Assembly: GCA_028285525.1 (NCBI GenBank) | Contig: JANQOZ010000109.1 | Span: forward strand, 1 to 64,000 | Direction: 5' to 3' | Length of the DNA stretch: 64,000 nt | Source: Lysobacterales bacterium | GTDB taxonomy: Bacteria > Pseudomonadota > Gammaproteobacteria > Xanthomonadales > SZUA-38 | Shown here: positions 1-45,782 of the stretch, in pieces | How positions within the stretch are numbered: the first letter of the stretch is position 1 | Layout of the letters: each line of letters starts with the position of its first letter | Notes under the pieces: generated by a model | Seen by the model: the letters and a program-made list of their open reading frames with translations, nothing else | Databases searched by the model: none | Told to the model about the DNA's origin: nothing | Position numbers and translations under genes: made by a program

Positions 1-1430
1 TCACTACCCTCGTAAACCACCGAACCCGTCGACGAAACCAAAACCTCGTGAAGATCCAGCGGTAATGCGGAGCCAACGGCAACGTCGGGGCCGGCGGCCG
101 AGCTGGCGGATATCGGTGGCGCCCACTGGTCCAGCGGTAACTCAGGCTGCTCGGATATCAGTATCAGCGATCGCTTCAGGCCGTCGATCCAACCGCGAAC
201 TGTCGCTTCGTCAAAAAGGTCCGTGTTGAAAGTTGCCTCAAGGAGCACGCCGTCTGGACCCGGCAGAAAGTTGAAAAAGACCTCAAAATTCTCTGCTACA
301 CGGGGCAGTGTCCTAAGCCGACAGGTCAAACCATCCAGCTCTATGCCCGCAAACTCCTGATCGATGTTGAAGACCACAGGAATAAGTGGAATCCGCGCAG
401 CATCACGCGGGACGTTCAATTGTCTGACTAGTTCTGCAAACGTGAAGGACTGATGCTCGTAAGCATCCATCACGGCTTCCTTGACGCTCGGAACGAGCTC
501 CGCAAAGGATGCATTCGCAGGAACCTGCTGTCGGACTGGCAGCATTTTTACGCAGTGCCCCACCAGCGACTGAAAGTCCCCATCCAGCTGACCGGCGACA
601 GCCATGCCAAGAATCAGGTCATCCTGACCTGTTAGCTGCCGCAGCTGCAGGAACAGTGCACTGAGAAAAGAGGCGACCAGCGTCGCACCCTGCCGACCGC
701 CGGCCCGGGTGAAAGGATCGATCAAATCCCGCGAAAACAGGACGTCGAGGCGGCGGGCACCGAAGGTGCGAAATTCCGGTCGAGCGCGATCCAGAGGCAA
801 ATCAAGCGGCGCCGGAAGCGTTGCAAATTTTTCCAGCCAGTGTGACGCATCCGCGTTTCCGTGACCTCGAGACTCATGGAGCGCATAGTCAACGAACGAT
901 TTGGGTGGCTCCAGCTGCGCTTCAACCTCGTTGAGGGAGGCGTTGTAAAGCCCTTCGAGTTCTTCGAGCAGCACCGCCATCGACCAACCGTCGACCACGA
1001 TATGGTGAAACAGTAGAAAAAGCGTATGTTGGTCGTGCGACTGCTGCACCAACACGACACGCCAAAGTACGTCTTGCTGCAAATCAAAAACGTGTCGAAC
1101 CAGCGCGGCGCGCTGCTCTTCCACCGAATACTGATCGGCGTCTGTGATTACGTCAAAATCAAGCCGCGGGCTCGCGGCGATACAGGCAAACATGCCGCGC
1201 CGGTCGAAATTGGCCCTCAGGGACTCGTGACGTTCCGCCAATTCGATGAGCGCGCGCTCCAGCGCCACTCTCTGCAGCGGGCCGCTGAACTCGAGTTCAA
1301 TTCCCTCATTGAACGCCAGCGCAGCCTGTGGATCCGCAAGACAAGAGGAGAAAATCTCCTTTTGCGAAGCGGTTGTGGGAACCGCGGCGTCCAGCTCTCC
1401 ATCGCGAAAGGGATTGAAACTCGTCTTCAC
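1..1430 (-). CDS. Non-ribosomal peptide synthetase, N-terminal condensation domain (partial, runs off left edge)
   Basis: About 476 residues are visible and the frame is open to the window edge. A GTG start at 1430-1428 overlaps the TGA stop of the upstream PKS gene (GTGA), so translation is probably coupled. The visible part is a complete condensation domain. Its catalytic motif HHIVVDGWS lies at about residues 142-150 (H142, H143, D147), followed by a latch-type stretch and a linker at the cut end. Condensation domains form the amide bond between an upstream carrier-bound acyl or aminoacyl donor and a downstream aminoacyl acceptor. Position suggests that the donor is the amino-acyl chain made by the preceding KS-AT-ACP-aminotransferase protein, so the new beta-amine or another amine would be acylated or used here (inference). 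An adenylation and carrier domain should follow outside the window. The condensation identity is firm; the substrate is unknown. Confidence 0.9.
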   Translation of the reverse strand, partial: MKTSFNPFRDGELDAAVPTTASQKEIFSSCLADPQAALAFNEGIELEFSGPLQRVALERALIELAERHESLRANFDRRGMFACIAASPRLDFDVITDADQYSVEEQRAALVRHVFDLQQDVLWRVVLVQQSHDQHTLFLLFHHIVVDGWSMAVLLEELEGLYNASLNEVEAQLEPPKSFVDYALHESRGHGNADASHWLEKFATLPAPLDLPLDRARPEFRTFGARRLDVLFSRDLIDPFTRAGGRQGATLVASFLSALFLQLRQLTGQDDLILGMAVAGQLDGDFQSLVGHCVKMLPVRQQVPANASFAELVPSVKEAVMDAYEHQSFTFAELVRQLNVPRDAARIPLIPVVFNIDQEFAGIELDGLTCRLRTLPRVAENFEVFFNFLPGPDGVLLEATFNTDLFDEATVRGWIDGLKRSLILISEQPELPLDQWAPPISASSAAGPDVAVGSALPLDLHEVLVSSTGSVVYEGS

Positions 1431-4400
1431 TTCAGGGAAACCGCCACATAGTTGCCGTCGTCGCCTTTGACATACCAGGCAGGATTACCCTGCTCGTCGC
1501 GGCCAAGTTTTGCGTCTGTTGCCGGTCGATTCTCTGGCAGGAACTGCTCCTCTGGGGGCATAGCCCTGGCGTCCAGGAGATCGTTAGCGACCATTTCGGC
1601 GGCAGCCGTCTCAAAAGCCGCCAGCAACTGCTCGAGCATCTCTGGCGTATGAGCCTGCGTCAAAAAGCAGGGCCGATGGCTCCAGATATGCACTCCTTGT
1701 TCGCGCAGCAGACTGAAGAACACTTCAGCGAAGGGAACCTCCAGATCGAAATAGAATACGGAACTGAATACCTGCGCCCTGATATCTACCCCCAGTCTTC
1801 GCATCCGCAGGTTCAGTTCTGCACAGAAGTCTGCCGTCGTCTGGTTTAGATTTTGTTGCAGTCCGCCACCTTGTTCCTTCAGGTGGCGCAGGACTGCCCT
1901 GCTCGCCGCCATGGCAAGAGGGTGCCGAACAAAAGTTCCTGCAAAGAAGGTCACGCCGACCTCAGGCGAGGATTCGTCACCAAAACGCCATTGACCACCG
2001 TCCATGGCGTCCATGTATTTAGCTTTCCCCGCCACAACACCGATCGGGTACCCGCCACCGAGAATCTTGCCGTAGGTCGCCAGGTCGGCTCGAATTCCAA
2101 AATACTCCTGCGCTCCACCCGGCGCACAGCGGAACCCGGTAACCACTTCGTCAAATATCAGCGCAATACCGTTTTCTTCGGTTACCGCGCGAAGCTGTTT
2201 CAGGAATTCAGCCGGCTGGATATCCGGCGCGCGGCTCTGGACCGGCTCCACCATTACTGCCGCAATCTCGCTGGCCTGAGATCTGATCACGTCGATCATA
2301 TCCATATCGGCCCAGGGCAGAACCATCACGTTATCGGAAACAGAACGAGGAATTCCGGGCGCGCCAGGGAGCGCCTGACCGGTCTTTCCGCCTCGCACGA
2401 TCACCTCATCGAAGATTCCATGATAGGCCTGCTCGAAGGAAACAACACGCGTGCGGTTGGTCACGGTCCGAGCCAGCCTGATCGCGGCCAGCACCGCCTC
2501 GGATCCGGTGTTGGCGAAGGTCATTCGTTCATTGCCGGTCATTTCGCATAGAAGCTGAGCGACCTCTCCAGCCAGCTCGGTTTGCGGACCAATTTCAACG
2601 CCCAGGTCTATCTGCGCTTTGACTGCTTCCGTTATGAATGCCGGCGAGTGACCAAAGAGAATCTGACCAAAGCCGTTGGTCAAATCGATGTACTCGTTAC
2701 CGTCAATATCCCAAAGCTTTGCGCCACTTGAGCGACGGGTCACTATCGGATACACCATCTCTTTCCAAAGCGGGTTGAACCCCGATACGGTCCGAGGATC
2801 GGCAAAGTGTGTCCGGTGCTCCTGAGCAAATGCTTTCGATGCCGGAGTGCGAGCCACGTAACGGTCCTGGATTGCCATCAGGGCACTTTTCTGCCGTTCC
2901 GTCAGCTCACCAGCTTGGCTGGAGATACGCGTGCCGGGGCCCCGGCGCCTTGCCTGATCCAGCTTTTGCTGCACCTCAGCGGGTAAGTCGATTGCCTTGC
3001 TCGCGGTGCTTGACTGCACCGCCAACTTTTTCTCACCCAGGGCAGCCGGAAGCTCGCCAGTGCCTCCCAGCGCCTGCAGCTGCAGCCTCATGATTTCCAG
3101 CTGGTTTTGGATAAGCGCATTCAGAGCCGCGCCGGGCTCACCGCTCGTTGGCAGACCAGTCATCTGCGCCATCACCTGCATGTTCTGATCCGACTGAACA
3201 GGCGTAGCCGGCGCTGACACCGCAAGCGCCGGGTTCTTCTCGGCCAGGTATGCGGCCAGCGAACTGACCGTGTTGTACTCCTCAGATAGATCCCGGAAGC
3301 TGATCGATACCCCAAACTCAGAGCTTACGGTCCGGCTCACCTGAGTCAGCAAGAGTGAATCCAGGCCGAGTTCCAGAAACGACAGGTCGTCCTGATCCGG
3401 CACCACGCTAATGCCCGAATACTCTTCGAGCATCTCCCGAAGCTGCTCCCGCAATGGGCTGGTGACATTCTGCGGTGGTTCGCCAACCTCAGGCTCTGAG
3501 ATCTTCGCTTCGGAGGTTTCTTTGGTCTGGTTGATTGTCATACCGGTTCCTTCCGGTTCATCGACACAATAGGTCGTTGGTTCAAACTCGTAGCCAGGCA
3601 GCGGGATTCGTCGGCGTTTCTCGTCTGCGTAAATTCTGTCGGCATCCAGAGGCAACCCGCTGGTCCACAGTGCCCCCCAAGCACCCGCGAGGGAATCGAT
3701 CGCAGCCGACTTCAACGTATGGCTAGCAGTGACAGCATGGCGCTGTTCAAGGGGCAGGCCCCTTGCAAGCGATGCGAGGGTTGATCCCGGGCCGGCTTCG
3801 AGAAAGACCAGATCGCGGGCGTCTTCGTTAAGCGTTGTAAGCGCGGCCAGGAAGTCTACCGGCTGCGCCAGCTGCCTCGCCCAGTAGGACGGACTGACCG
3901 CATCAGTATCGCTTAAACGCTCACCAGTCACAGTCGAGATGATCGGCACTCCAGGAGGCGCTGTTCGCACGCCGCTGAGGTATTCCTCCAGCTCATCAGA
4001 AGCCGCTTTCATCATCGTCGAATGGAAGGCATGGGAGGTGTTGAGTATCTGGCATGCCGTACCGCGCTGCTTCAAAGATGTGGCAAACGCCTCAACGTCA
4101 GGCGTCTTGCCGGCCACCACAACGCTGCGAGGTCCGTTTACGGCCGCCAGCGAGAGTTCAGGCGGCAGGTGTTCGGAAAGGTCCGAGAAACCGGATCGAA
4201 CGGCCAACATCGACCCAGGTTCCTGAGCTTGCATGAGCTCCCCGCGACGGCAGACGATCTTCATCGCGACCTCGGGCGACCACATGCCGCTGATACATCC
4301 GGCGGCAAACTCTCCAATGCTGTGCCCAATCAGTGCTGCCGGCTCCAGTCCGTGATTGATCCAGTAGTTCCCCAGGGCCCAGGAGACAGCAAACAGCGCG

Positions 4401-6208
4401 GGCTGGGCGAGTTCGGTCTGACGAAGCTTTTCCTGAGCCCGATAATCTTCAGGGTCGGCATGAAACAACAGCTCTGTCAGGATTGCTTCTCGCTCTCCAG
4501 CTGCAGCGAGCATCCGTCTGACGTCCTCACCCACCGATTCGAGCTGGCCGACGAACCCTGCTGCCATGCCGGGTTGCTGGGCACCCTGTCCCGGAAACAT
4601 GAAAACACAATCCGTCGCGGCTCCCGCCTTGGCGGCAGTCCATGCTGATCCGGGATTGCTCTTAAGAGCTCTTTCAGCAGCAACATCCGGCCAGCATTCG
4701 GGCGCGCCGAGCAGGGCGCCACGAAAAGCGTGAGGCTCGCGTGTTTTCAGGACCGTGTAGGCGGCGTCGGCCGTGTCGGCAGCATCCACTTTGGTCAGGC
4801 GGCCGATCATCGCTTTTGCCAGGCGATCTAGGGCTCCCTCCGTGCGTGCGCTGAGGAGCAGCGCAGGAACGCGGGAAAGCCTGTCCGACTCGCGGTATTC
4901 GGGCCACTCCTGGAGAAGAACATGGGCGTTGGTACCACCTACGCCAAACGAACTGACGGCACCTCTTCTTGCCATCCCGTTCGGTAAATCCCACGCCTGA
5001 GACTGACTGTTGACGGCGAAACGCGTTCCTTCGAGACCAAGGTTTGGATTCGGCTTAACATAGTTTTGGACACCCGGAATTGTCGCGTGCCGAAGCGAGA
5101 GCGCCATTTTGATCAGGCTGGCTGTACCCGCGGCATGAATCAGGTGGCCGATATTCCCCTTGATCGAACCCAAAAAGCACGGCACCTCGCCGCGGCCATA
5201 AACCTCTTTCAGGGCAGCCACCTCGACCGGATCACCCAGGGGGGTTGCGGTACCGTGCGCTTCGATATGGGTGACGGATTCCGGCTCAACATCCGCTACG
5301 CCCAGCGCGAGACGCAGCGCATCCGCCTGTCCGCCGACACTCGGTGCGGTAAAGCTGACTTTGCTGTTTCCGTCGTTGTTGATTCCCGCGCCCAGGATGA
5401 CCCCGTGGATCGTGTCGCCGCTGTTCTGTGCGTCTTCCAGCCGCTTGAGCAAGACCAGGGCGGCACCTTCGTTGAAGGTTGTTCCGCTCGCCTCGGCATC
5501 AAATGGCCTGGTTCGTCCATCCCTGGAAAGCATCCCACCTTCGTTGTAAAGGTAGCCGCGATTCGAAGGCGGATTTAGCGATACGCCTCCTGCAACCACA
5601 CAGTCGCTTTCGAAGTTCAGCAGGCTGCTGACTCCCTGGCACACCCCGACAAGCCCGGTTGAGCAGGCGGTCAACAGATTGATACAGGGGCCTCGAAAAT
5701 TGAACAGATACGCCAACCGAGTCGCTGGGAAGTCATGTTCATTGGCTATCGAAGAGTTCAGCTCACCGAATCGCTTAACGAGCTGCTGGCCTGAAGGAGA
5801 GCTGAGATAATCAGACTGGTAGCGATTCCAGTTCGAGCCCACAAACACACCGACGCGATCATCAACGCGTCGTATGTTGATACCCGCGTTTTCAAAGAGA
5901 TGCCAGGTCAGTTGAATCAAAACCCGATGCTGCGGATCCATGATGCGGGCTTCCATTGGGGAAATTCCAAAGAACTCTGCATCGAAATCCATTGCGCCAT
6001 CGACGATGCCACGGGCAGGAACGTAGTTACCGTCAGACGTTATCGCGCGATCTACCGGATGAATCTCGGACTCTGTAAACAGCCGCACCCCGTCGACTCC
6101 CTCGAGCAAACCTTGCCAGAGTTCTTCCACGCTGTTGGCACCCGGGAATCGTCCGGCCATACCGACAATTGCCACCGCATCTTCTACGGCGAACTGTGAG
6201 TCATTCAT
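1427..6208 (-). CDS. Type I polyketide synthase fused to an aminotransferase (KS-AT-ACP-AMT)
   Basis: A 1593-residue multidomain protein. The ketosynthase (about 10-435) has active-site C182 in TACSTGL, H318 in EAHGT and H355 in GNIGHL. The acyltransferase (about 530-830) has S630 in GHSIGE and HAFHS at 726-730, the pattern of malonyl-CoA-specific ATs. The carrier domain has S951 in LGLDSL. After a Q/A-rich linker comes a class III PLP aminotransferase (about 1120-1540), with D1353 in FDEVVTGF and the PLP lysine K1381 in TYGKILGGG. The family resembles glutamate-1-semialdehyde aminomutase and the AMT domain of MycA in mycosubtilin synthesis. Expected chemistry is one malonyl extension followed by conversion of the beta-keto group to a beta-amine while still bound to the ACP. 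The ATG overlaps the stop of the upstream A-PCP gene (ATGA), and the downstream NRPS overlaps its stop. Domain calls are secure; the substrate is inferred. Confidence 0.95.
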   Translation of the reverse strand: MNDSQFAVEDAVAIVGMAGRFPGANSVEELWQGLLEGVDGVRLFTESEIHPVDRAITSDGNYVPARGIVDGAMDFDAEFFGISPMEARIMDPQHRVLIQLTWHLFENAGINIRRVDDRVGVFVGSNWNRYQSDYLSSPSGQQLVKRFGELNSSIANEHDFPATRLAYLFNFRGPCINLLTACSTGLVGVCQGVSSLLNFESDCVVAGGVSLNPPSNRGYLYNEGGMLSRDGRTRPFDAEASGTTFNEGAALVLLKRLEDAQNSGDTIHGVILGAGINNDGNSKVSFTAPSVGGQADALRLALGVADVEPESVTHIEAHGTATPLGDPVEVAALKEVYGRGEVPCFLGSIKGNIGHLIHAAGTASLIKMALSLRHATIPGVQNYVKPNPNLGLEGTRFAVNSQSQAWDLPNGMARRGAVSSFGVGGTNAHVLLQEWPEYRESDRLSRVPALLLSARTEGALDRLAKAMIGRLTKVDAADTADAAYTVLKTREPHAFRGALLGAPECWPDVAAERALKSNPGSAWTAAKAGAATDCVFMFPGQGAQQPGMAAGFVGQLESVGEDVRRMLAAAGEREAILTELLFHADPEDYRAQEKLRQTELAQPALFAVSWALGNYWINHGLEPAALIGHSIGEFAAGCISGMWSPEVAMKIVCRRGELMQAQEPGSMLAVRSGFSDLSEHLPPELSLAAVNGPRSVVVAGKTPDVEAFATSLKQRGTACQILNTSHAFHSTMMKAASDELEEYLSGVRTAPPGVPIISTVTGERLSDTDAVSPSYWARQLAQPVDFLAALTTLNEDARDLVFLEAGPGSTLASLARGLPLEQRHAVTASHTLKSAAIDSLAGAWGALWTSGLPLDADRIYADEKRRRIPLPGYEFEPTTYCVDEPEGTGMTINQTKETSEAKISEPEVGEPPQNVTSPLREQLREMLEEYSGISVVPDQDDLSFLELGLDSLLLTQVSRTVSSEFGVSISFRDLSEEYNTVSSLAAYLAEKNPALAVSAPATPVQSDQNMQVMAQMTGLPTSGEPGAALNALIQNQLEIMRLQLQALGGTGELPAALGEKKLAVQSSTASKAIDLPAEVQQKLDQARRRGPGTRISSQAGELTERQKSALMAIQDRYVARTPASKAFAQEHRTHFADPRTVSGFNPLWKEMVYPIVTRRSSGAKLWDIDGNEYIDLTNGFGQILFGHSPAFITEAVKAQIDLGVEIGPQTELAGEVAQLLCEMTGNERMTFANTGSEAVLAAIRLARTVTNRTRVVSFEQAYHGIFDEVIVRGGKTGQALPGAPGIPRSVSDNVMVLPWADMDMIDVIRSQASEIAAVMVEPVQSRAPDIQPAEFLKQLRAVTEENGIALIFDEVVTGFRCAPGGAQEYFGIRADLATYGKILGGGYPIGVVAGKAKYMDAMDGGQWRFGDESSPEVGVTFFAGTFVRHPLAMAASRAVLRHLKEQGGGLQQNLNQTTADFCAELNLRMRRLGVDIRAQVFSSVFYFDLEVPFAEVFFSLLREQGVHIWSHRPCFLTQAHTPEMLEQLLAAFETAAAEMVANDLLDARAMPPEEQFLPENRPATDAKLGRDEQGNPAWYVKGDDGNYVAVSLK

Positions 6209-8067
6209 GAGGTAGTTATCCTTCCGCGCCGCCGGCGTCGCGATGCTCGGGCTGCCGCCGCTCGCTGACCTGCATCCTCCTGTTGGGCCTGCTGCGTCTC
6301 ACCAATGAACGCCGCCATCTGGCGGATTGTGGGATACTCAAATACGCGAGTCACCGATACCTCCCGGCCCGCGAGCTTCGTAAGGTGCTGAGCGAGTTCT
6401 AGCGTCTGAAGGGATGTGCCACCAGCGTCAAAAAAGTTCCGATCTGGGTCCCCAAGCTCGCCGGCAGGCAGAAAGCGTGCCCAGACGCTGGCCACCAATT
6501 TCTGAGCCTCATCGCCAAACGCAGGCCCGCTATTCGTCTCGTTAATTTCGGATTCGTAGGGGTTTGGCAACCGATGCTCGTCCAGTTTGCCCGTCGGCCC
6601 CAGCGGAAAGCTGTCCATATGAATGAACTGAGCAGGCACGATAGGCTCAGGAAGTCGCTCCGCGAGAAAGCTCCTAAGGCCTTTTTGGGGGACTTCGGCA
6701 AGATAGTAGGCGACGAGCTGCTTTTCGCGCTGCCGATCAGGCTTGATTCGGACACGGGCATCCGAGACATCGGGATGCGCCAGCAGGTGACTCTCCAGGT
6801 CTCCCGGCTCCACGCGATGCCCCCGAACCTTTAATTGACCGTCATTGCGGCCCTCGAAGAAAAAACAGCCGTGCGCATCTCGCCTGGCGAGATCCCCGGT
6901 GCGGTAGTAAAGCCGGCCATCCATCTCGACAAATCGTTCGGCCGTCTCTTCGGGCCGATTCCAGTAACCACCCGCAACACCCGACCCGCTGGTAAACAGC
7001 TCGCCGATTTCACCATCCAAGACGTCGTTCCCGTCTCGCAGCAGCCTTACTCCTGTTTTCGGCAATGCCTGCCCGATAGCCATCGGCCCGGCGGGGTCGA
7101 GGTCCCGGGGCACCACATAAGCAGTAGTAAATACGGTGTTTTCAGTCGGTCCGTAACCGTTAATGATTCTGATACCGGCGTTTTGTGCATATACGTTGAG
7201 GCAATGCTGGACGGCGAGTGCCTCTCCGCCGACGAAGAGCCGTTCCAGACCTGCAAAGCACTCGGGCGCCAGCGCGGCAAACTGATGAAATAGCGATGTC
7301 GTCAGGAATACCGTCTCTACACCATGAGTTTTGATGATCCGGCCGAGTTCGGCGGGTTGCGGTATGTTTTCGGGCGGATACAGGACGCAGGTTCCACCGC
7401 ACGCGAGGGCGCCGAACAGCTCGAATAATGAAGCATCGAAGGTCGGTGCTGAAATCTGAAGAGTTTTGGTGGAACCGTCGAAATCGCCGTAGTGTGATGG
7501 ATCAAATAGCCGGCTGATTCCGGCGTGGGTTATCCGGACCCCTTTCGGCCTGCCAGTGCTGCCCGAGGTAAACATCAGGCATGCGGTCGAATCGTCTGCC
7601 AAGCCGTGGGCAGGAAGAAAACCCTGATTATCGATAGTTGATTCCAAGGCCTCGGATAGCCTCACCAGCTTCAGATCCTGTGCAGGCAGGTCCAAGCCCT
7701 CGTCAACGAGGCAAACAGCATCCTTACAATCATCGAGCATGACTCGAATCTTCGCCTCGGGATAGCGAGGGTCAATCGGCAGGTACGCTGCGCCGGTCGC
7801 GAGCACCCCCAGCCACCCGGCAACCGCCCTTGACGACCGATGTGCGAGAACCGGAACGACATTCCCGCCGGAAACCCCAAGATTTTGAAGCGCGGAACCG
7901 ACGGTGCTTGCATCGCGGGCAAGTTCCGCGTACGACAGTTGCAGGCCCGACGAGACGTCCACCAACGCGATCCGATCTCCCTGTCGGGCGACAAGGTCGG
8001 AAAAGCGTCTCCAGAGATGGTTTGCGCCGGACTCCCCTGCAGCCACTGGCATTTCCTTGGACTTCAC
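6205..8067 (-). CDS. NRPS loading protein, adenylation and peptidyl carrier domains (A-PCP)
   Basis: A 620-residue stand-alone A-PCP didomain with no condensation domain, so it probably starts this assembly line. The adenylation domain (about 15-500) shows core motifs FTSGSTGRPKG (166-176), YGPTEN (305-310), YRTGD (388-392), KVRGHRVEPGDLE (413-425) and the catalytic K494 in GPTGKLD. The carrier domain ends the protein, with the pantetheine serine S552 in DAGGTSL. Aligning by eye to GrsA gives pocket residues D-A-F-L-F-G-G-V-F-K. The aspartate at the amino-binding position implies an alpha-amino acid, and the rest suggests a hydrophobic one; I cannot name it. The start is GTG at 8067; an ATG at 8052 is the alternative. 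It is first in an operon with the KS-AT-ACP-AMT gene (4-base overlap). The upstream 277-base gap is shared with a divergent hydrolase gene. Confidence 0.93.
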   Translation of the reverse strand: MKSKEMPVAAGESGANHLWRRFSDLVARQGDRIALVDVSSGLQLSYAELARDASTVGSALQNLGVSGGNVVPVLAHRSSRAVAGWLGVLATGAAYLPIDPRYPEAKIRVMLDDCKDAVCLVDEGLDLPAQDLKLVRLSEALESTIDNQGFLPAHGLADDSTACLMFTSGSTGRPKGVRITHAGISRLFDPSHYGDFDGSTKTLQISAPTFDASLFELFGALACGGTCVLYPPENIPQPAELGRIIKTHGVETVFLTTSLFHQFAALAPECFAGLERLFVGGEALAVQHCLNVYAQNAGIRIINGYGPTENTVFTTAYVVPRDLDPAGPMAIGQALPKTGVRLLRDGNDVLDGEIGELFTSGSGVAGGYWNRPEETAERFVEMDGRLYYRTGDLARRDAHGCFFFEGRNDGQLKVRGHRVEPGDLESHLLAHPDVSDARVRIKPDRQREKQLVAYYLAEVPQKGLRSFLAERLPEPIVPAQFIHMDSFPLGPTGKLDEHRLPNPYESEINETNSGPAFGDEAQKLVASVWARFLPAGELGDPDRNFFDAGGTSLQTLELAQHLTKLAGREVSVTRVFEYPTIRQMAAFIGETQQAQQEDAGQRAAAARASRRRRRGRITTS

Positions 8068-8296
8068 GGCCGATTACCTAAACCTTAATTTTAGCAACGG
8101 GCTCAGCAGCGGTCGCATAAACTTTTGTAACTTGACCAAAAGAAAGGGACACCGCCTCTAGCTCCAGCATCAGCGACACCTGTTACATAAACGCAACGCC
8201 TTCCGTTTTCCCTCTGCGGCAAATGCAAAAAAGTGTCGGAGTGCAAGGCGAGAGCCACCCGCAACGACTTGTTGTGTCATTATAGAAGGCTAGGGA

Positions 8297-8316
8297 GACT
8301 CCTGATTACAGGAGTC
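8297..8316 (+). promoter_or_regulatory. Perfect 8-bp inverted repeat upstream of the hydrolase pair
   Basis: GACTCCTG, then ATTA, then CAGGAGTC forms a perfect 8-base-pair stem with a 4-base loop. It ends 28 bases before the ATG at 8345, inside the divergent control region between the A-PCP operon and the plus-strand hydrolase pair. It could be an operator for a dimeric regulator or a hairpin in the 5' leader of the hydrolase mRNA. No T-run follows, so it is not a typical terminator. The function is inferred only. Confidence 0.4.
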
Positions 8317-8344
8317 AGGCTTACCAAAAGAACACATTTGCCGC

Positions 8345-9034
8345 ATGGACCACGCATTCTTTGGCCAACGCCAACAGTTGTTCGGCACATTTCATCCAGC
8401 CTCTGGCCAAACCCGAGATCGAGCCGTGCTGATTGTCGCACCACCCTTCGGCGACAATCTGCGGAGTCATTGGACCCTGAACAAGACGGCAAGCAAATTG
8501 GCGGAAGCAGGCATCGACGTACTTCGGGTCGACTTGTCGGCGTGCGGGAACGCGCCTGGCGACCTGGGTGAAGTCACCTGTAAGACGTGGATTGCGGACT
8601 GTCAGGAAGCGCTCCAAGAGCTAAGCGACCTGTCTGGATCCACCAGAGTAATCACCTTTGGGGTGCGTTTTTCTGCCGCTTTGATGCTTGCCGCACTGGA
8701 TGGGGCCGGTAGCCGTGCCGAAACCATTGCCTGGGACCCAGTTTGGGACGGAAAGCAGTACTTGGAAGAGCTTCGAGCTATCAAATTTGGACCACAATCG
8801 GAGGGCGTACTGGCGGGTCACGCTGTTTCGGCAGACTTGATATCAAGCTTTGCCGACTTCGCAATTGAACCCGGTGATGACGAGAATACGCTTGTCATTG
8901 CGACAACCGAGTCTTTTCCGGGCACAAACGTCTCGCAGGTTAACCTCGACTGTGAGTGGGCCTTGGCAGATTTAAAGATGATTTACGGTCACGACATCGT
9001 GAGCACCACCGTAGAGTGGTGCGGACGCCCATGA
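8345..9034 (+). CDS. Alpha/beta-hydrolase-fold protein lacking the nucleophile serine (exosortase-associated hydrolase 2-like)
   Basis: A 229-residue protein with an alpha/beta-hydrolase fold: strand-rich N-terminus, PFGDN near the oxyanion position (34-38) and a DVLRVDLS segment (58-65). The nucleophile elbow, normally GxSxG, reads GVRFS (106-110), with arginine where serine should be, and no clear catalytic histidine is seen. It resembles the protein at 11457-10675, which carries GLRLG at the same place. Both look like the 'hydrolase 2' family found beside exosortase A loci (from memory). It overlaps the next gene by four bases (ATGA), so the two products are probably made together. A non-catalytic partner or carrier-protein-binding role is inferred. 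The ATG has only a weak ribosome-binding site. Confidence 0.75.
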   Translation: MDHAFFGQRQQLFGTFHPASGQTRDRAVLIVAPPFGDNLRSHWTLNKTASKLAEAGIDVLRVDLSACGNAPGDLGEVTCKTWIADCQEALQELSDLSGSTRVITFGVRFSAALMLAALDGAGSRAETIAWDPVWDGKQYLEELRAIKFGPQSEGVLAGHAVSADLISSFADFAIEPGDDENTLVIATTESFPGTNVSQVNLDCEWALADLKMIYGHDIVSTTVEWCGRP

Positions 9035-9831
9035 AACCGGAAATTCATCGTTTTGGTAAACAAAGGGAATTACTGGGTTTTTCTCAAATTCCAGACAAAC
9101 ACAACGGTACAGCGCTGATTTTTCTCAATTCCGGGCTGCTTCCATCGATGGGCCCCTTTCGGCTATTCCTCGAGTATGCGGATGAGATGGCCGAGAAAGG
9201 ATTTGTCACCGTGCGCTTCGATCAGTCCGGGAAAGGCGACAGCTACCGAAGAGACATGGATCGACCTGAGGCGAATTCACTGGATTTTCAGGCCGTTAAA
9301 GAGTTGTTGGATTCTGCGAGAGTTGAACGTTTCGTACTGATCGGGCTGTGTTCGGGCGCCGACGACGCAAGCCAGATCGCCGAGCAATTCTCCTGCATCG
9401 ATGCTGTTGTATTGCTTGATGGCTTTGCTAAAAAAACGAGGGCATACCAATTGCGGTACTACCTGCCACGGATTCTCAAGGTTGCGCCGATGGTCCGGGG
9501 CGTAATTCGGAAATTCAGGTCTTCCGGATCCGGTGACGGGATGCTAACGCCGGTGTCGTTACGCAATTGGGAGAGCGACGACCAGATGATCGAGCGATAC
9601 CAAAAACTGCTGAACCGAGGAGTTAGGATACTCGCGATCTTCACCGGGGGCATAGAACGTTACTACAATCACCAGGGCCAGCTGACAAATGCTGTGGGGG
9701 CATCACCAAACCTGACTGAAATCTATCAGCGAGACGCGGAACACATTTACCCGGAACCCTCGCAACGGCGTTGGCTGAAGTCAACGATTACCGAGTGGTT
9801 GGACCAGCACTTAAGGATTACTGAGGTTTGA
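9031..9831 (+). CDS. Alpha/beta hydrolase with a cysteine nucleophile elbow (exosortase-associated hydrolase 1-like)
   Basis: A 266-residue protein; the ATG at 9031 overlaps the stop of the preceding hydrolase-fold gene. Family features are LNSG at 32-35, the VRFDQSGKGDS segment (61-71), a nucleophile elbow GLCSGA (105-110) placing C107 at the catalytic position, and H238 in the late DAEHIY motif as the likely catalytic histidine. A GxCxG elbow is known in dienelactone-hydrolase-like enzymes, so thioester or ester cleavage is plausible. It is paralogous to the protein at 10682-9837 and lies tail to tail with it, five bases apart. Context inside an NRPS/PKS cluster without a thioesterase suggests release or proofreading of carrier-bound intermediates (inference). 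Confidence 0.8.
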   Translation: MKPEIHRFGKQRELLGFSQIPDKHNGTALIFLNSGLLPSMGPFRLFLEYADEMAEKGFVTVRFDQSGKGDSYRRDMDRPEANSLDFQAVKELLDSARVERFVLIGLCSGADDASQIAEQFSCIDAVVLLDGFAKKTRAYQLRYYLPRILKVAPMVRGVIRKFRSSGSGDGMLTPVSLRNWESDDQMIERYQKLLNRGVRILAIFTGGIERYYNHQGQLTNAVGASPNLTEIYQRDAEHIYPEPSQRRWLKSTITEWLDQHLRITEV

Positions 9832-9836
9832 AGCGC

Positions 9837-10682
9837 CTACCGGGTTTTCCTATCCACAATGCGGACCCAAGCCACAATGTCCTCCGGAATCTGCTTCTGG
9901 TGACTGAGGCCGGTCAAAATATGCGTCGCGTCGAAATGGTAATCGACCCTCAATCGGCCAGCAAAATTCACGTCCGAAAAACTACTTTCGAACTGCCCGG
10001 GATAATTCAACGTCTGCATTTGACCGCCGGTAAAGATCGCAAAAATCTGCGTACCGGCCTCGACAATTTTTGAAAGTCCCTCAGCCACCTGCTCTCGCGG
10101 AGGTTTTACTCGAATATAGCTGGGCATTTCCACGAATTCGTCGTCTGGCTGGTCCCCTCTACTGGCCGGTTTATTAAGACGAAACAATCGCTTGGCAAAA
10201 CGCATCCATACATTGGGATTTAAAAGTCTCGGACCATAGTGGTGGAAATACCATCTTGGCGTGCGATAGCAGAACGGATCGATCTGGATGATACCAATGA
10301 CCCTAGAGTCGACCTTCGCCACCTCATAGGATCCGTCCGCGCCGGAACACAGGCCATAGAGCACGAAGCGATTGATGCCACGCTTGCGCTCAAGGTAGTT
10401 CATCACCTCAGCGGTTTCCTCGATGGCGGTTTCCTCGAAGGGCTTGCTGCCACGGCGGGTCTCGCTGTCCCCGATACCCGAAAAATCGAACCGCACCGAC
10501 AGATAGCCGGCTTGGGCCAAGGTTCGCGCGATATGGACCGACATGCGGCAGGTGCCCACATGGTGCATCACGCCGGAGTTCAGGATGACCACCGCGGGGG
10601 CGCTGGCGTCCACGCTGTCCGGCTGGGAAACAATGGCCGTCAGGGGCGTGGGTTTACCGATTCTGACCGCTCTCTCACGCAC
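9837..10682 (-). CDS. Alpha/beta hydrolase with a cysteine nucleophile elbow (exosortase-associated hydrolase 1-like), second copy
   Basis: A 281-residue protein from a GTG at 10682, which overlaps the end of the upstream gene by 8 bases and has GGAGAGG about 12 bases before it. An upstream in-frame TTG at 10715 is the alternative start. Motifs are LNSG (34-37), SVRFDFSGIGDS (62-73), elbow GLCSGA (110-115) with C112 as putative nucleophile, and H254 in FDATHIL. The architecture matches the plus-strand paralog at 9031-9831. It is the last gene of the operon that starts with the glycine/monooxygenase NRPS and the KR-DH PKS. The likely role is hydrolysis of a thioester or ester in that pathway; the exact substrate is unknown. 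Confidence 0.8.
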   Translation of the reverse strand: MRERAVRIGKPTPLTAIVSQPDSVDASAPAVVILNSGVMHHVGTCRMSVHIARTLAQAGYLSVRFDFSGIGDSETRRGSKPFEETAIEETAEVMNYLERKRGINRFVLYGLCSGADGSYEVAKVDSRVIGIIQIDPFCYRTPRWYFHHYGPRLLNPNVWMRFAKRLFRLNKPASRGDQPDDEFVEMPSYIRVKPPREQVAEGLSKIVEAGTQIFAIFTGGQMQTLNYPGQFESSFSDVNFAGRLRVDYHFDATHILTGLSHQKQIPEDIVAWVRIVDRKTR

Positions 10683-11457
10683 GGGAGTTTTCGTCCTCTC
10701 CAAACCAGCCCACAATCGCCTGGATGATGGGCTGCGGCAGCAGGATACCGCCGAAGTCGTCCACGTAATTCCAGTCTCCGGGCGCTGGCGTCAGGCTGAA
10801 TTCATAGTTGGGCAACTGCTGCCACGCCGATCTGAGCTTCTGCCCTTCAGGATAGTCGCTCGAGACGACGTGGAAAACCCGTTTCGCCCGCGGCTCCATC
10901 GTCAGCAGATCGGCGCCAGCCAGCCCATCGCGCAGCGCCTTGGATAGTCCGAAGCCGTTGAAATAGAGCGTACCGTCGTCGTCGATGAAGTTATTGTGCG
11001 CCTCGTCCCCGAGGTGCATGACCTCCTGAAGTTCCGCTTCGTAAGCCGCGCCAGAGTTGACCGGATCCCACAGCACGAGGCGGTCGAGTTCGAGCTGGGT
11101 ACTGGCCACCGCACCGAGCAGTCCACCCAGACGCAGCCCGATCAGGTGAAGGTGGGTGATTCCGGCGGTTTCGCGAAGCTCCTCGGCCGCGGCCGAGATG
11201 TCGGTGAGCCATTGCTCTAGGTCCGCGTCGGCCAGCACGCCACTCGAGTTGCCCGTGCCGCTGTAGTCAAAGCGCAGCACGTGGTACCCCTGTTTGGCCA
11301 GCAGCATGGCCAGCTGCCGGTTGGCCCGGTGGGCTCGCATGTATTCCTGGCCAAAGGGGTAACATACGAGCACACCTTCACTGCGCGGGCGTCCCCCCGG
11401 GGGGTGGTAGACCCCGAACAGCGGTTCCGCTGAAGGGCCGAAAAACAGCGGCGTCAC
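10675..11457 (-). CDS. Alpha/beta-hydrolase-fold protein lacking the nucleophile serine (exosortase-associated hydrolase 2-like), second copy
   Basis: A 260-residue protein. The GTG at 11457 overlaps the TGA of the PKS gene (GTGA), so it is translationally coupled to it. It has an alpha/beta-hydrolase fold with CYPFGQEY (32-39), HVLRFDYSGTGNS (59-71) and an elbow reading GLRLGG (107-112), where R109 replaces the nucleophile. No convincing catalytic histidine appears near the C-terminus, where the usual position reads GDWNYVDD. It matches the 'hydrolase 2' family of exosortase A loci (from memory) and the plus-strand paralog at 8345-9034. It is probably not a classical hydrolase; a structural or binding partner of the adjacent cysteine hydrolase is the favoured inference. 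Confidence 0.75.
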   Translation of the reverse strand: MTPLFFGPSAEPLFGVYHPPGGRPRSEGVLVCYPFGQEYMRAHRANRQLAMLLAKQGYHVLRFDYSGTGNSSGVLADADLEQWLTDISAAAEELRETAGITHLHLIGLRLGGLLGAVASTQLELDRLVLWDPVNSGAAYEAELQEVMHLGDEAHNNFIDDDGTLYFNGFGLSKALRDGLAGADLLTMEPRAKRVFHVVSSDYPEGQKLRSAWQQLPNYEFSLTPAPGDWNYVDDFGGILLPQPIIQAIVGWFGEDENSRA

Positions 11458-14400
11458 GAGCGTTTACCGAACAGCGACTTGACCAGCCCGCGGCGCTGCG
11501 CTGGTTTTTCGGCTTCAGGCTCCGCCGAAGCGTCGGGTTCCGTGGCCGCTGGTGGCGCCGCGGCCGTCTCGTCCACCTCGTCGATTCCGCGCTGGGAATC
11601 GACCTCGGCAGCTACCTGCTCCAGGGTCTGCAGCGCCATAATCGCCTGGTTGAGCTGCACACCAAATTTCTTGTTGGTCTTGGTGATGGCGCGGATCGAC
11701 AGCAGCGAGTGGCCACCCAGGTCGAAGAAATTTTCATCGACGCCGATCCGGTCCACGTCCAGCACCTCCTGCCAGATGGCGACAATCGCCTTCTGCGTTG
11801 GCGTTTCCGGGGCCTCGAAGGTGTCGACGGGCGCAAACGGGTCAGTCAGCAGCTTGCGCTTCGGCTGACCACTGCTGTCCAGCGGGATCTCGTCGATTTC
11901 GATAAGGTGCTGCGGCAGCAGCTCCGGCGCCAGCTCAGCCTTCAGGTGCCGCCGAAGATCGCTGACGGTGACATATTCATCCGGGTCCACCACAAAATGT
12001 GCGACCAGGCGGCGTTCGTCCTCTTCGTCCAGGTGCGAACGAACAACGGCGAGTTCGATCGCCTCGTGGTCGAGCATCGCCGCTTCGATGACCGGAATAT
12101 CGGGGTCGATGTCAGCGTCGTGGCCGGAGTCGGCCACCACCGTGGCGCGGGCACCGCCGCCCCCGCTCTGCGTAAGCTGCTGCACCATGAGATCGATTTC
12201 AAAGGCCGCAACAGCAACCTGGGGCAGCCCCACCCGGCGCAGCGCCATGTCGAACGCCGTGGCGCCCTCCTTGGGCGAAATACCCAGCTCCAGCGTCCGC
12301 TTCAGTGCCGGGTCCAGCTCATCGTCGGCCGGCGGCGCGCTGAGCGCGGCGGCCAACCGCTGCATGGTGAAGTTTTGCACCATCAGCAGCGGCGTACCCG
12401 CTTCGTCGGTCACCACGATGTCGAAGGTGACACTGTCTCCCGCGCGGCCTTCGCTGGCTTCCTGTTCGCGGTAGGTCACGTGACTGTACCAGCGTCCGGC
12501 GGTGGCCCCGAAGTAGGTCAAGTTCTGGTAACCGACCGGCACATACAGCTCGTCCATCGGCTGATAGCCGGGAATCAGCGCCTGCGCGCCCGCGGTCGCC
12601 ATGTCCAGCATCGCCGGATGCAGCCGGTAGTGCTCCAGATCGGATTCGTGGGACCCGAGGTCAATCTCCTCCAGCGCTTCACCCTGCCCCAGGTGAATCG
12701 CCTTCAGGCTGGCCCAGCGAGGCCCAAAATTCAGATGCGGATGGTGGTCCGCCTCGTCGAACCGCTGGACCCGCTCCGTGCAGCGCGCCAGCAGCTCGCT
12801 GCGCGGCTCCGCGCTGATCGACTTCGGCGCAGCCGGAGTGATGTCGCCGCGGCAGTGTTCGGTCCACTCACGGCCGGCTTCACTACTGATGAGAAATTCA
12901 CCCTCAGCCAGGTCCACCACCACCTTCAGTGCGCGGCGGTCACCATCGGGAACAAAAAACGGCGCCATGAAAAACACGTTGGCCATGGCCACCGTGGACT
13001 GCCCGGTCGCCTCGGCAAAAGCCGCCCGCGCCAGCTCGATGTAGCCCGCGCCGGGGATCAGTGCGTCGTTGCTGGCGGCGAGCCGGTGCTCGTCCAGCAC
13101 CCAGTCCGTGTCGGGACTGAAGATCTTGATGAACTCGCAGCGTTCCTCGGTTCGGGTCACGCAGGTTCCCAGCATGGGGTGAGTAACGGCCTCACCCAGC
13201 GCCGCCAGCTCGATTGCGCTGCCGTCGGCGATGGACGCCGCCATACCCACCTGGCGCCACGCCGGCCAGTTGATCGCCGTGTAGGCGGTGCCGTTGGTGC
13301 CGTCGCGGTGCGCACAGTAGCTGTCGAGATAGGCGTTGGCGGCCGCGTAGTCGATCTGGCCCGGCAGGCCGGCAAAGGCGCTGATGGACGAAAACGCCAC
13401 AAAAAACCTGAGCTGCTCACCGGCAAACGCCTGGTCGAGCAACCGGGTGCCCTGCACCTTGGGGGCCAGGACGCGACGGGCGTCGGCCGGCTCCTTGAGC
13501 TGGATCAGCGCGTCGTCGATCACGCCCGCGGTGTGGACAACGCCGCAGACCGGACCGAACTGTTCCCCGATCCTCGCGCGCAGTGACGTCACCTGGTCAG
13601 GGCGGCTGATATCGGCCGCAAGGTGAGTGACCGTCGCCTTTTTGCTGATCGACAGGAGCGTCTTGAATCGCTTAGCCAGCGCGCCGGGGCCCTCAGCCAG
13701 CGTCTCCCACTCATCAGTGGGCGGCAGCTCGCGCCGGGAAACGAGCACGAGGTTGAGCTTCGCCTGCTCTGCGAGTTTTTCCGCCACCACCAGCGCCAGG
13801 CCGCCGATGCCGCCGGTGATCACCACGGTGTCGTTGTCCCTGAGTTTCACCAGGGGCGCACCCTGCGGCGGCAGCGCCGCGTCGAAGCCGCTGACGAAAC
13901 GCTGGCCGTTGCGCAGCGCAATCACGGCGTCACCCGTTTCCTCATCCGGGTCGCCGGCTGCGCGAACGAGAATTTCCCGTTCCAGCGAGGCAAGCCAGTT
14001 GCCGGCGGAACCGCTGCCGGCCTCCAGGTCCACCAGGCGTGCCTCCACCGACCGCAGCTCCCGGTTGGCGACGCCGACCGGACCGAGCGCCAGGGCCTGG
14101 CCAGGGTCGGCTACCGTTTCGGCGCCCACCGCAAACAGGCCGCGGGTCACGACGGTGATCGTCATGCCCTCCTCGGGATCTTCGTCCGCCACTGCCTTGA
14201 CCAGGGCAAACAGCGGCTGGAACACCGACTCGACGGGGTCCGCGGTGCTGTCGCCTTCGACAAACACCACCACGTCCGTCGGCAGCTCGTTGCTCTGCGC
14301 CGCCCCGGCGAGCAGGTCCGCCCACGCCTCCGCCTGGTCCAGCGGCAGGCTGAAGCCGTGGTCGGCTGGCGCCAGCTCCGCTCCCCGGGTGGCGCGGATA

Positions 14401-17267
14401 ACCGCTGCCCGGCCTTCAATCCGGCTGGCCAGCGCGCGCGCTTCCTGGCCGTCGCCAACCACCATGATCCGCTGCTGCGTGCGTTCAGGCGCCGTGTCGG
14501 GCAACCTGCCGGCGCGACGCCAGACGGGCTGGTAAAACCAGTGGGCGATGTCTTCCTCGCGCTTCAGACCCGCCACGTTGCCTTCCGAGAACACCTCGTC
14601 CCCGGGCTCGACCCAGTAGCGCGCGTGGTCGAAGCTGTAGGTCGGCAGCGCCAGCCGCTGCCGCCGCTCGCCGTCCCAGTAAGGCCTGAAGTCGCTGACC
14701 CCGCCGGCCTGCCACAGCGCGCCGAACATCCGCAGCATGAATGCCTGATCGGACTCGCCGTCATCCGGATGTCGCATGGAATGGACAATGCCACCCCCGA
14801 CGGTGTTCGCCGGGTTAATCTGGCACAGACTCGACAGCGTCTTGCCGGGCCCAACCTCCAGCAGGGTGAGATTCGGTTTGGCCAGCAGCGCCTCGGCGCA
14901 GTCGGCGAATCGAACCGTATGCCGAAGATGCTGCACCCAGTAGTCCGGGTCGGTCGCCTGCTCGTCGGTCATCCAGGAACCAGTGAGATTGGCCGTCAGC
15001 GGAATTTTCGGTGCGCTGAGCTCCATGGAACGCAGGTAGTCGCCGAAGGCCTCGAGGATCGGCTCCAGCATGCTGCTGTGCGCGGCGATGTTGATGCGCA
15101 CCCGCTGAAACTCGATTTCCTGCTGGTTCAGCGTGTTTTCGAGGGCGGCCAGGGACTCGCTCGGGCCGGAGACCACGGACAGTTCCGGTGCGTTGACGCA
15201 GGCGAGCGACAACGCGTTGTCCATCAGCTCGCGCAGACGCTCCTCGCCGGCCTGCACGCTGAGCATGCCGCCTTCCGGCACGGTCTCGAAGAGCTGACCG
15301 CGCAGCGCCACGAGCCCCACCGCGTCGCGCAGGCTGATCACGCCGGCGATACAAGCGGCGGTGTTTTCGCCCATGGAATGGCCGGTCAGACAGACCGGCT
15401 CCACACCCCAGGACATCCAGAGCTTCGCCTGGGCGTACTGGGCGGTAAACAGCGATGTCAGTGACCGGGTGGGGCGCTCGAGCTCAGCGCGCGCCGACTC
15501 TAGCTGATCCGGCGCCGGGTACATGAGCGACTTCAGGTCAAAGTCGATGAAATCCTTCAGATGGTTCAGGCACTCGTCCACCGCCGCGCGGTACACGGGT
15601 TCGGTGTCATAAAGGTCTTTGCCCATGCCCGGATACTGGGCGCCGCCGCCGGCAAACATGAAGGCGACCTCGGCAGCCTGCTCCGGCGCCGCCGCCGTCA
15701 GCACCCGGTCAGCCGGCTGCTGGGTCAGCAGTTCGATCGCCTCGGCGTGGTCCGCGGCGGCCAGGACGCGGCGCTGGCCAAAGCTTCGTCGTCCGGTCTG
15801 CAGCGTATAGGCCAAGTCCGCGAGCGGCACGTCCGGGTGGGTTTCGAGGTACTGCGCGAGCTTCTTGCTGTTCCGATTGAGCGCCTTCTCCGTGCGCCCG
15901 GACACCGTCAGGAGCACCCGCTCGCTGCGGTGCGGCGCGCTGGCCCGAGCCGGCGGCGCCTCCTCGAAGATCAGGTGCGCGTTGGTGCCACCGACACCCA
16001 GGGAGCTGACCCCGGCACGCCGGGGACCGTCATCGCGGTGCCAGGGTTTGACCTGGGCGTTGACGTAGAACGGGCTGGATTCCCAGTCGATCGCCGGATT
16101 GGGCGCCGTGAAGTTGATGTTCGGCGGCAGTTCCCGGTGCCGCAGGGCCTGGATCACCTTGATCGCGCTGGCAACGCCCGCGGCGGTGTCCAGGTGCCCG
16201 ATGTTCGCCTTCACCGAGCCAACGCCGCAGAACTGTTTCTTGTCGGTCTCGCGCTGATAGGCGCTCGTCAGCGCGGCGATTTCGATCGGGTCGCCAATCG
16301 GGGTACCGGTCCCGTGACACTCGACGTAGTCGATGCTGTCGGGATTGATGTCAGCCACCATCAGCGCCTCGTGGATTGCCGCCGCCTGGCCGTCGACGCT
16401 CGGCGCCATGTAGCTGACCTTGCCCGCCCCGTCGTTGTTGACGGCCGAGGACTTCAGCACGGCGAGGATGTTGTCGCCGTCAGCCAGCGCGTCCTCCATG
16501 CGCCGGAGCACGAGCACTCCCGCTCCGCTGCCAAACAGCGTCCCCTGGGAGTTGGCGTCGAACGGCCGGCAGTGGCCGTCGGGAGACAGGATTTCACCCT
16601 CCTGATACGTGTAGCCGCGGTGATGCGGCATCTCGATCGTGACGCCGCCCGCCAGGGCCATGTCACACTCGTGGCTGAGCAGACTCTGTGCAGCCAGGTG
16701 CATGGCCACCAGCGAAGTCGAGCAGGCGGTCTGCACATTGACGCTAGGGCCGGTCAGGTTGAAACAGTAGGACACGCGGGTGGTCAGGAAGTCCTTGTCG
16801 TTGCCGGTGTGGCGGACCAGGAACAGGCCGTGGCGGTTCATGTACTGCGGGTTGGTGAACAGGTTGTACGGCATGTACGCGTTGTGACCGGAGCCACCAA
16901 AAACGCCGACCGCGCCGTCAAACTGCGCCGGGTCGTGTCCGGCGTTCTCCAGCGCCTCCCAGGCCACCTCAAGGAACTGCCGGTGCTGCGGATCCATCAT
17001 GGACGCTTCCAGCGCGCCGAAGCCAAAAAACCCGGGATCGAACTGATCCATCTTGTCCAGGATCGCGGCAACTTTGACGTAGCGCGGGTCATCAAGGACG
17101 CTGTCGGGCACACCCTGGTGACGCAGCTGCTCGTCGGTCAGCGGCGTAACGCTCTCGACGCCGTCCCGCACGTTGCTCCAGAATGCGCCGGCATCCAGCG
17201 CGCCGGGCAGCCGGCAGGCCATCCCGACGACCGCGATATCGTTTGAAATGTCCAGGTTTGTACTCAC
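11454..17267 (-). CDS. Type I polyketide synthase (KS-AT-KR-DH-A-domain remnant-ACP)
   Basis: A 1937-residue protein with a GTG start at 17267. The ketosynthase has C182 in TACSTSL, H318 in ECHGT and H358 in ANIGHL. The acyltransferase has S631 in GHSMGE, but the specificity motif reads IAAHSSM (727-733), neither HAFH nor YASH, so the extender is uncertain. The ketoreductase has TGGIGGLA (1151-1158) and the FSSIS / YAAAN catalytic pair (Y1307). The dehydratase-like domain has H1394 in DEHRLA, 11 residues before the IPGAGY proline rather than the usual 9, and D1555 in LHPAMLD. Residues about 1725-1810 match the C-terminal subdomain of NRPS adenylation domains without the rest of one. The carrier serine is S1854 in LGGHSL. 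The expected product is one extension reduced to a double bond. No thioesterase is present. The gene lies between the Gly-module NRPS and two hydrolases in one operon. Confidence 0.93.
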   Translation of the reverse strand: MSTNLDISNDIAVVGMACRLPGALDAGAFWSNVRDGVESVTPLTDEQLRHQGVPDSVLDDPRYVKVAAILDKMDQFDPGFFGFGALEASMMDPQHRQFLEVAWEALENAGHDPAQFDGAVGVFGGSGHNAYMPYNLFTNPQYMNRHGLFLVRHTGNDKDFLTTRVSYCFNLTGPSVNVQTACSTSLVAMHLAAQSLLSHECDMALAGGVTIEMPHHRGYTYQEGEILSPDGHCRPFDANSQGTLFGSGAGVLVLRRMEDALADGDNILAVLKSSAVNNDGAGKVSYMAPSVDGQAAAIHEALMVADINPDSIDYVECHGTGTPIGDPIEIAALTSAYQRETDKKQFCGVGSVKANIGHLDTAAGVASAIKVIQALRHRELPPNINFTAPNPAIDWESSPFYVNAQVKPWHRDDGPRRAGVSSLGVGGTNAHLIFEEAPPARASAPHRSERVLLTVSGRTEKALNRNSKKLAQYLETHPDVPLADLAYTLQTGRRSFGQRRVLAAADHAEAIELLTQQPADRVLTAAAPEQAAEVAFMFAGGGAQYPGMGKDLYDTEPVYRAAVDECLNHLKDFIDFDLKSLMYPAPDQLESARAELERPTRSLTSLFTAQYAQAKLWMSWGVEPVCLTGHSMGENTAACIAGVISLRDAVGLVALRGQLFETVPEGGMLSVQAGEERLRELMDNALSLACVNAPELSVVSGPSESLAALENTLNQQEIEFQRVRINIAAHSSMLEPILEAFGDYLRSMELSAPKIPLTANLTGSWMTDEQATDPDYWVQHLRHTVRFADCAEALLAKPNLTLLEVGPGKTLSSLCQINPANTVGGGIVHSMRHPDDGESDQAFMLRMFGALWQAGGVSDFRPYWDGERRQRLALPTYSFDHARYWVEPGDEVFSEGNVAGLKREEDIAHWFYQPVWRRAGRLPDTAPERTQQRIMVVGDGQEARALASRIEGRAAVIRATRGAELAPADHGFSLPLDQAEAWADLLAGAAQSNELPTDVVVFVEGDSTADPVESVFQPLFALVKAVADEDPEEGMTITVVTRGLFAVGAETVADPGQALALGPVGVANRELRSVEARLVDLEAGSGSAGNWLASLEREILVRAAGDPDEETGDAVIALRNGQRFVSGFDAALPPQGAPLVKLRDNDTVVITGGIGGLALVVAEKLAEQAKLNLVLVSRRELPPTDEWETLAEGPGALAKRFKTLLSISKKATVTHLAADISRPDQVTSLRARIGEQFGPVCGVVHTAGVIDDALIQLKEPADARRVLAPKVQGTRLLDQAFAGEQLRFFVAFSSISAFAGLPGQIDYAAANAYLDSYCAHRDGTNGTAYTAINWPAWRQVGMAASIADGSAIELAALGEAVTHPMLGTCVTRTEERCEFIKIFSPDTDWVLDEHRLAASNDALIPGAGYIELARAAFAEATGQSTVAMANVFFMAPFFVPDGDRRALKVVVDLAEGEFLISSEAGREWTEHCRGDITPAAPKSISAEPRSELLARCTERVQRFDEADHHPHLNFGPRWASLKAIHLGQGEALEEIDLGSHESDLEHYRLHPAMLDMATAGAQALIPGYQPMDELYVPVGYQNLTYFGATAGRWYSHVTYREQEASEGRAGDSVTFDIVVTDEAGTPLLMVQNFTMQRLAAALSAPPADDELDPALKRTLELGISPKEGATAFDMALRRVGLPQVAVAAFEIDLMVQQLTQSGGGGARATVVADSGHDADIDPDIPVIEAAMLDHEAIELAVVRSHLDEEDERRLVAHFVVDPDEYVTVSDLRRHLKAELAPELLPQHLIEIDEIPLDSSGQPKRKLLTDPFAPVDTFEAPETPTQKAIVAIWQEVLDVDRIGVDENFFDLGGHSLLSIRAITKTNKKFGVQLNQAIMALQTLEQVAAEVDSQRGIDEVDETAAAPPAATEPDASAEPEAEKPAQRRGLVKSLFGKRS

Positions 17268-43325: not shown

Positions 43326-43348
43326 GTTGGATCGACGTGGCTCGTCGT

Positions 43349-44650: not shown

Positions 44651-44657
44651 GTGGACG

Positions 44658-45773: not shown

Positions 45774-45782
45774 CGCACAGAT

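Follow-up and report, generated by a model that had tools for sequence, protein, structure and literature searches.

Paired Cysteine and Arginine Hydrolases at Assembly-Line Operons: A Candidate Split Thioesterase

What is the function of a pair of hydrolase genes, one of which lacks a catalytic nucleophile, that lies at the end of an operon for a natural-product assembly line? The question is raised by a stretch of 64,000 nucleotides from a Lysobacterales bacterium (assembly GCA_028285525.1, contig JANQOZ010000109.1, positions 1 to 64,000 of the forward strand; hereafter the window), in which two such pairs face each other between two operons that encode nonribosomal peptide synthetases (NRPS) and polyketide synthases (PKS). 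We refer to the cysteine hydrolase as H1 and to its arginine-containing look-alike as H2, and to the two pairs as pair a (H2a and H1a) and pair b (H2b and H1b). We propose, with a probability of roughly 70%, that H2 and H1 form one unit, a split carrier-protein-dependent cysteine thioesterase or acyltransferase in which H1 would be the catalytic half and H2 the non-catalytic half.

A Recurring Two-Gene Unit

Pair a is on the forward strand. H2a (8345-9034), recognized from its open reading frame and translation, is a pseudo-hydrolase of 229 residues whose nucleophile elbow reads GVRFS, with Arg108 encoded at 8666-8668. It is followed by H1a (9031-9831), a cysteine alpha/beta hydrolase of 266 residues with the elbow GLCSGA and Cys107 encoded at 9349-9351; the start codon of H1a and the stop codon of H2a overlap by 4 bp (ATGA). 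Pair b, on the reverse strand, consists of the pseudo-hydrolase H2b (10675-11457; 260 residues; elbow GLRLG, Arg109) and the cysteine alpha/beta hydrolase H1b (9837-10682; 281 residues; elbow GLCSGA, Cys112), both of which start with GTG. H2b shares 8 bp with H1b and 4 bp with the PKS gene upstream of it, and 5 bp separate the stop codons of H1a and H1b. Translation of the window thus upheld what a first-pass annotation had read from the letters alone, namely the positions of the four genes, their facing layout and 5-bp gap, the contrast between arginine and cysteine at the elbow, and the overlap of reading frames within each pair. The combination of gene order, elbows and coupling recurs in more than 100 pairs from many phyla, far beyond what chance would produce.

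The best-scoring named families for these proteins are TIGR03100 and TIGR03101, which NCBIfam types as hypothetical equivalogs ("hydrolase 1" and "hydrolase 2, exosortase A system-associated"). H2a and H2b scored 75.8 and 100.1 bits, respectively, against TIGR03101 (curated cut-off 202.75), and H1a and H1b scored 53.8 and 76.5 bits against TIGR03100 (curated cut-off 168.45), all four being well under the cut-offs. Canonical members, which exceed them, follow a free gene for an acyl carrier protein (ACP) and display the same Cys/Arg split and gene order. The window pairs share the split, the order and the coupling, but differ in their lower scores, in lying in NRPS/PKS operons and in belonging to a genome (a 98%-complete assembly) that has no match to the exosortase family TIGR02602. 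The kinship with exosortase-A hydrolases asserted in the first-pass annotation is therefore real as regards the Cys/Arg split and the ACP gene in front, but it does not extend to exosortase: because the genome has no TIGR02602 match, the link lies with polysaccharide loci and carrier proteins and not with exosortase itself.

To gauge conservation, we draw on 80 loci from a scan of genome contigs with a narrow alignment, which lean towards H1 proteins of the NRPS type, and on a later sample of 398 genomes of the phylum, which is independent of that bias. The elbow cysteine of H1 was present in all 113 sequences and its histidine in 111 of the 113; the acid was aspartate in 93, asparagine in 18 and glutamate in 2. 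The elbow arginine of H2 was likewise found in 108 of 108 sequences, two further H2 matches with serine at the arginine site (L023 and L044 17370-19151), neither of which belongs to a pair, having been set aside as other hydrolases. The H1 and H2 profiles are homologous (hhalign 99.5%, E 4.5e-23), which indicates that the two are paralogous families, as the first-pass annotation had supposed, and not unrelated ones. Moreover, the tree of H1 matches that of H2 in a mirror-tree comparison of 68 pairs (r = 0.92; best permutation 0.29).

H2 lies upstream of H1, and an exact 4-bp overlap is the most frequent spacing (48 of 105 pairs). In the 398-genome sample H2 adjoined H1 at 33 of 34 H1 places, and at 16 of the 34 the two were a single polypeptide with H2 first. 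Among 18 aligned fusions the H1 site was always cysteine (18/18), and the H2 site was arginine in nine and glycine in nine. One candidate fusion, at locus L040, was rejected because its reading frame is simply an extended one that overlaps a PKS gene.

Carrier Proteins and the Predicted Active Site

If the unit acts on carrier-bound chains, its position relative to carrier proteins is of particular interest. Pair b ends an operon that runs from an NRPS gene through a PKS gene to H2b and H1b. The PKS (11454-17267, reverse strand; domains KS-AT-KR-DH-ACP by Pfam), directly upstream of H2b, has the ACP as its last domain and has no thioesterase domain detectable by Pfam. More generally, in 69 of 104 pairs the gene directly upstream of H2 has a carrier domain at its end, and in a further 12 of the 104 carrier and H2 were in one protein, for a total of 81 of 104 with adjacency or fusion. 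True NRPS-H2 fusions, for example of the form C-A-PCP-H2 (PCP, peptidyl carrier protein), were found in about 13 loci, as counted by BLAST domains, and place H2 at the thioesterase position behind the terminal PCP. No thioesterase domain was seen by Pfam in 11 terminal NRPS/PKS proteins that were scanned. This placement at the point of release behind NRPS/PKS carriers substantiates the earlier suggestion that the pairs serve an assembly line.

Carriers also accompany the unit outside NRPS/PKS operons. Canonical exosortase-A loci have a free ACP gene directly before H2, often with a 4-bp overlap, and in locus L141 a TIGR03098 ligase gene lies alongside. In Azospirillum, Mycetohabitans and Rhizobium, a fused H2-H1 ends an operon with genes for an ACP, an acyl-CoA dehydrogenase, an amino acid-[ACP] ligase, a DUF1839 protein and a GH2 protein (L228 6122-13788, L229 5844-13842 and L230 3250-13788). 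As in the window the H2-H1 unit comes last, but here it is one polypeptide, sometimes with a long extra N-terminal half, and a tRNA-synthetase-like ligase, not an NRPS, loads the carrier. The fusions at the ends of these three operons are annotated merely as "alpha/beta hydrolase."

AlphaFold2 models, built from alignments of 80 rows for H1b and 78 rows for H2b, had predicted local distance difference test (pLDDT) scores of 93.7 and 94.9, respectively. In the H1b model Cys112 lies between strand 5 and the next helix, strand 6 leads straight into Asp135, and the loop that follows the last strand, strand 8, carries His254. NRPS thioesterases usually have their nucleophile after strand 5, their acid after strand 6 and their histidine after strand 8 (PMC11298585), and the H1b model has this layout. 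Cys112, Asp135 and His254 are thus predicted to form a triad at the thioesterase positions, and the model retains cysteine, and no other residue, as the nucleophile, in keeping with the first-pass annotation. The H2b model has Arg109 at the elbow and a conserved tryptophan, Trp229, in the loop where the histidine would be expected; it has no histidine there.

Terminal thioesterase domains (PF00975) resemble H1b in their alpha/beta hydrolase fold, in having the acid after strand 6 and in their place behind the last carrier. The window proteins, however, had no PF00975 match in Pfam, their matches being limited to Hydrolase_4 and Abhydrolase (H2a matched no Pfam family), and by sequence the pairs are nearest to the S33/Hydrolase_4 group. 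They differ further in being split in two, in having a partner that lacks a nucleophile and in using cysteine instead of serine. The cysteine thioesterases SulM and ObiF also have a cysteine nucleophile and release chains from a terminal PCP, as we propose for H1, but they are single domains with no pseudo-enzyme partner, and their acid lies in the loop after strand 7 (PMC11298585), whereas in the H1b model Asp135 follows strand 6. In the limited collection of literature that was searched, no paper turned up on pairs of this type, whether as a split thioesterase or as a pseudo-thioesterase.

A Proposed Function and Its Rivals

In the mechanism that we propose, His254 and Asp135 would activate the H1 cysteine (Cys112; residue numbers are those of H1b), which would attack the thioester that links the chain to the upstream carrier and thereby take the chain over as an acyl-enzyme. 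H2, a non-catalytic paralogue located at the usual place of a thioesterase domain, would bind H1 and probably also the carrier protein; its arginine would probably pair with the acid retained after strand 6 or contact the phosphopantetheine arm. From there the chain would be handed on; water is the less likely acceptor, and the best candidate is a polysaccharide intermediate. Complex formation, thioester chemistry and the nature of the acceptor are steps that we infer. In the window, the operon served by pair b is the NRPS-PKS one that it ends (21664-9837), and pair a probably serves the adjacent operon for an A-PCP protein and a PKS-aminotransferase.

Several observations weigh against this proposal. 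About half of the fusions have glycine at the H2 site, and a few H2 proteins of one family lack the arginine, which is therefore not essential everywhere. Only a C-terminal remnant of H2 precedes an intact H1 in locus L046 (near 9801-9986), a case of either true decay or an assembly fault, and locus L112 has H1 with no H2. Thus, the first-pass annotation's "obligate partners" holds as near-constant partnering, evident from adjacency, 4-bp overlaps, fusions and mirrored trees, but not in the word "obligate." About one fifth of the pairs, including pair a and those of Rhodanobacteraceae exopolysaccharide loci, have no carrier directly upstream. Finally, Foldseek and VIA-align with H1b, and Foldseek with H2b, returned generic esterases and lipases as neighbors, the top fold matches pointing to no specific kinship with thioesterases. 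As the thioesterase DcsB and the curacin thioesterase are among the near-tied matches, the modeled fold by itself does not decide function.

Support for an acceptor other than water comes from the company that the pairs keep. Of 24 genomes that have NRPS-type pairs, 16 carry a Poly_export gene on the contig of the pair and no more than about 46 kb away from it; given 60 Poly_export genes in about 123 Mb, chance would account for roughly one such genome (several of the genomes are Marinobacter and count as one lineage). Exopolysaccharide genes also lie beside many other pairs. In addition, a flippase-like domain (PF13440) is joined to H2-H1 in locus L216. This genomic context and the flippase fusion favor a polysaccharide or a lipid-linked precursor as the acceptor. 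Proteins of about 1,100 residues that end in H2-H1 are encoded at L216 8457-11768 (reverse strand), L222 6782-10141 (forward) and L230 10477-13788 (forward); it is the N-terminal half of the L216 protein that matches the polysaccharide flippase family, and a fusion of similar length in Rhizobium sp. NLR16a probably has the same build. A wider, tentative suggestion is that H2-H1 may be a general bacterial device for attaching acyl groups, aminoacyl groups or whole NRPS/PKS chains covalently to growing exopolysaccharide, the products becoming decorations and the pseudo-thioesterase half of the device being able to form part of the assembly line itself.

The main rival is plain hydrolysis, in which H1 would be an ordinary release thioesterase that frees the finished chain from the last carrier, H2 a docking or stability subunit, and polysaccharide not involved. 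It has the merit of requiring no acceptor, and it fits the location of the pair at the terminus, where no other thioesterase domain is seen. On the other hand, the export-gene linkage and the flippase fusion speak against it, and the two best-characterized cysteine thioesterases, SulM and ObiF, carry out ring formation (of a beta-lactam and a beta-lactone, respectively) and not hydrolysis (PMC11298585). We therefore regard hydrolytic release as unlikely, though it is the strongest of the competing explanations.

Less probable still is a type II editing role, in which the pair would clear wrong or stalled groups from carriers and have no part in releasing the final product. In favor of editing, which the first-pass annotation had offered alongside release, are the existence of the pair as separate genes at operon ends and, where a locus has two pairs, the presence of one for each assembly line. 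Release is the better fit, however, with some 13 loci in which a fused H2 immediately follows the terminal PCP and no other release domain in the terminal proteins scanned; also, ordinary type II thioesterases are single serine proteins.

It is very doubtful, moreover, that the pair acts on the polysaccharide itself, by de-esterification or quality control, with its carrier neighbors being incidental. The strong exopolysaccharide linkage and the Rhodanobacteraceae loci without an upstream carrier would suit such a role, and a part in polysaccharide quality control was guessed for Bcam1334, a TIGR03100-annotated protein of a Burkholderia exopolysaccharide cluster, in the one paper of the searched collection that mentions TIGR03100 by name (PMC3584217). 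But such a role is hard to reconcile with how often a carrier is adjacent or fused, in some cases as a free ACP gene with a 4-bp overlap, and with the position of the pair at the end of the assembly-line operon in NRPS-PKS loci.

Should the split carrier-protein-dependent enzyme prove correct, the widely annotated exosortase-A hydrolases 1 and 2 would gain a specific and testable role in the unloading of carrier proteins. The contexts in which the unit occurs are four: the NRPS/PKS lines, the exosortase-A loci (where the ACP is free), the operons with an amino acid-[ACP] ligase, and the flippase fusion. Its activity would explain product release in many assembly lines that have no recognized thioesterase, and it would point to the existence of peptide- or polyketide-modified exopolysaccharides.

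Origin and Surroundings of the Window Pairs

How did two pairs come to face each other? The first-pass annotation saw a mirror-image duplication, but the evidence speaks against it. A congener (locus L025) matches the window at 94% over positions 1-9684, the match ending inside the 3' part of H1a. Pair a and its neighbors are shared by the congener (whose counterpart of H2a is 85% identical), but at the place of the pair-b operon the congener has a different gene module (L025 9867-17102), whose predicted products resemble a ligase and, judged by eye, an ACP and an asparagine synthase. The difference amounts to a module swap within one genus, between the two species. Between pairs a and b identity is just 31-32%, as compared with 54-56% for pair b and pairs of other orders, relatives that also have the NRPS-PKS-H2-H1 arrangement or lie near the same type of NRPS. 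In trees, the two pairs fall in different supported groups. Two-pair loci also recur elsewhere (L026, L048 and L054); in L048 and L054 each cluster has two tandem H2-H1 pairs, one behind a PKS and one behind an A-PCP protein. The simplest reading of these comparisons is that two independently inherited assembly-line modules were set side by side. A recent local inverted duplication is highly improbable, notwithstanding the mirror layout, the 5-bp spacing and an approximately unbiased (AU) test that, with long branches, did not formally reject one clade of a and b (p 0.22 for H1; p 0.09 for H1 and H2 combined).

The first gene of the pair-b operon (17342-21664, reverse strand; NCBIfam and Pfam) encodes an NRPS of the form C-A-PCP whose adenylation domain is interrupted by a luciferase-like monooxygenase of the MupA/Atu3671 type. 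The combination of an NRPS with this insert, a KS-AT-DH-KR module and H2-H1 recurs in Gemmatimonadota, Acidobacteriota and Gammaproteobacteria. On the other side, the A-PCP gene (6205-8067, reverse strand) is divergent from H2a, and its product is 94.6% identical in the congener L025; the KS-AT-ACP-aminotransferase PKS (1427-6208, reverse strand) is 96.7% identical. The locus had no PADLOC match and was rejected as a defense system.

A third H2-H1 pair of the same genome, on contig C82 (16600-18181; L022 10666-12211), is conserved in the congener (L024). It has no adjacent carrier gene; by eye, a gene for a GntR-like regulator lies upstream and glycosyltransferase-like genes lie downstream.

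Finally, family matches identify an exopolysaccharide locus of the XrtA-associated type in the window (39323-51986, reverse strand), and its exosortase-A-associated families are present although the genome has no recognizable exosortase. The locus has genes for a glycosyltransferase, a ligase, a Wzx-like protein, an O-ligase-like protein, a GNAT protein and an outer-membrane protein, as well as for a tyrosine kinase, a chain-length protein (over the TIGR03007 cut-off), a Poly_export protein and a sugar transferase. Between the NRPS region and these exopolysaccharide genes are two genes for large FG-GAP repeat proteins (24129-26222 and 35232-36878).

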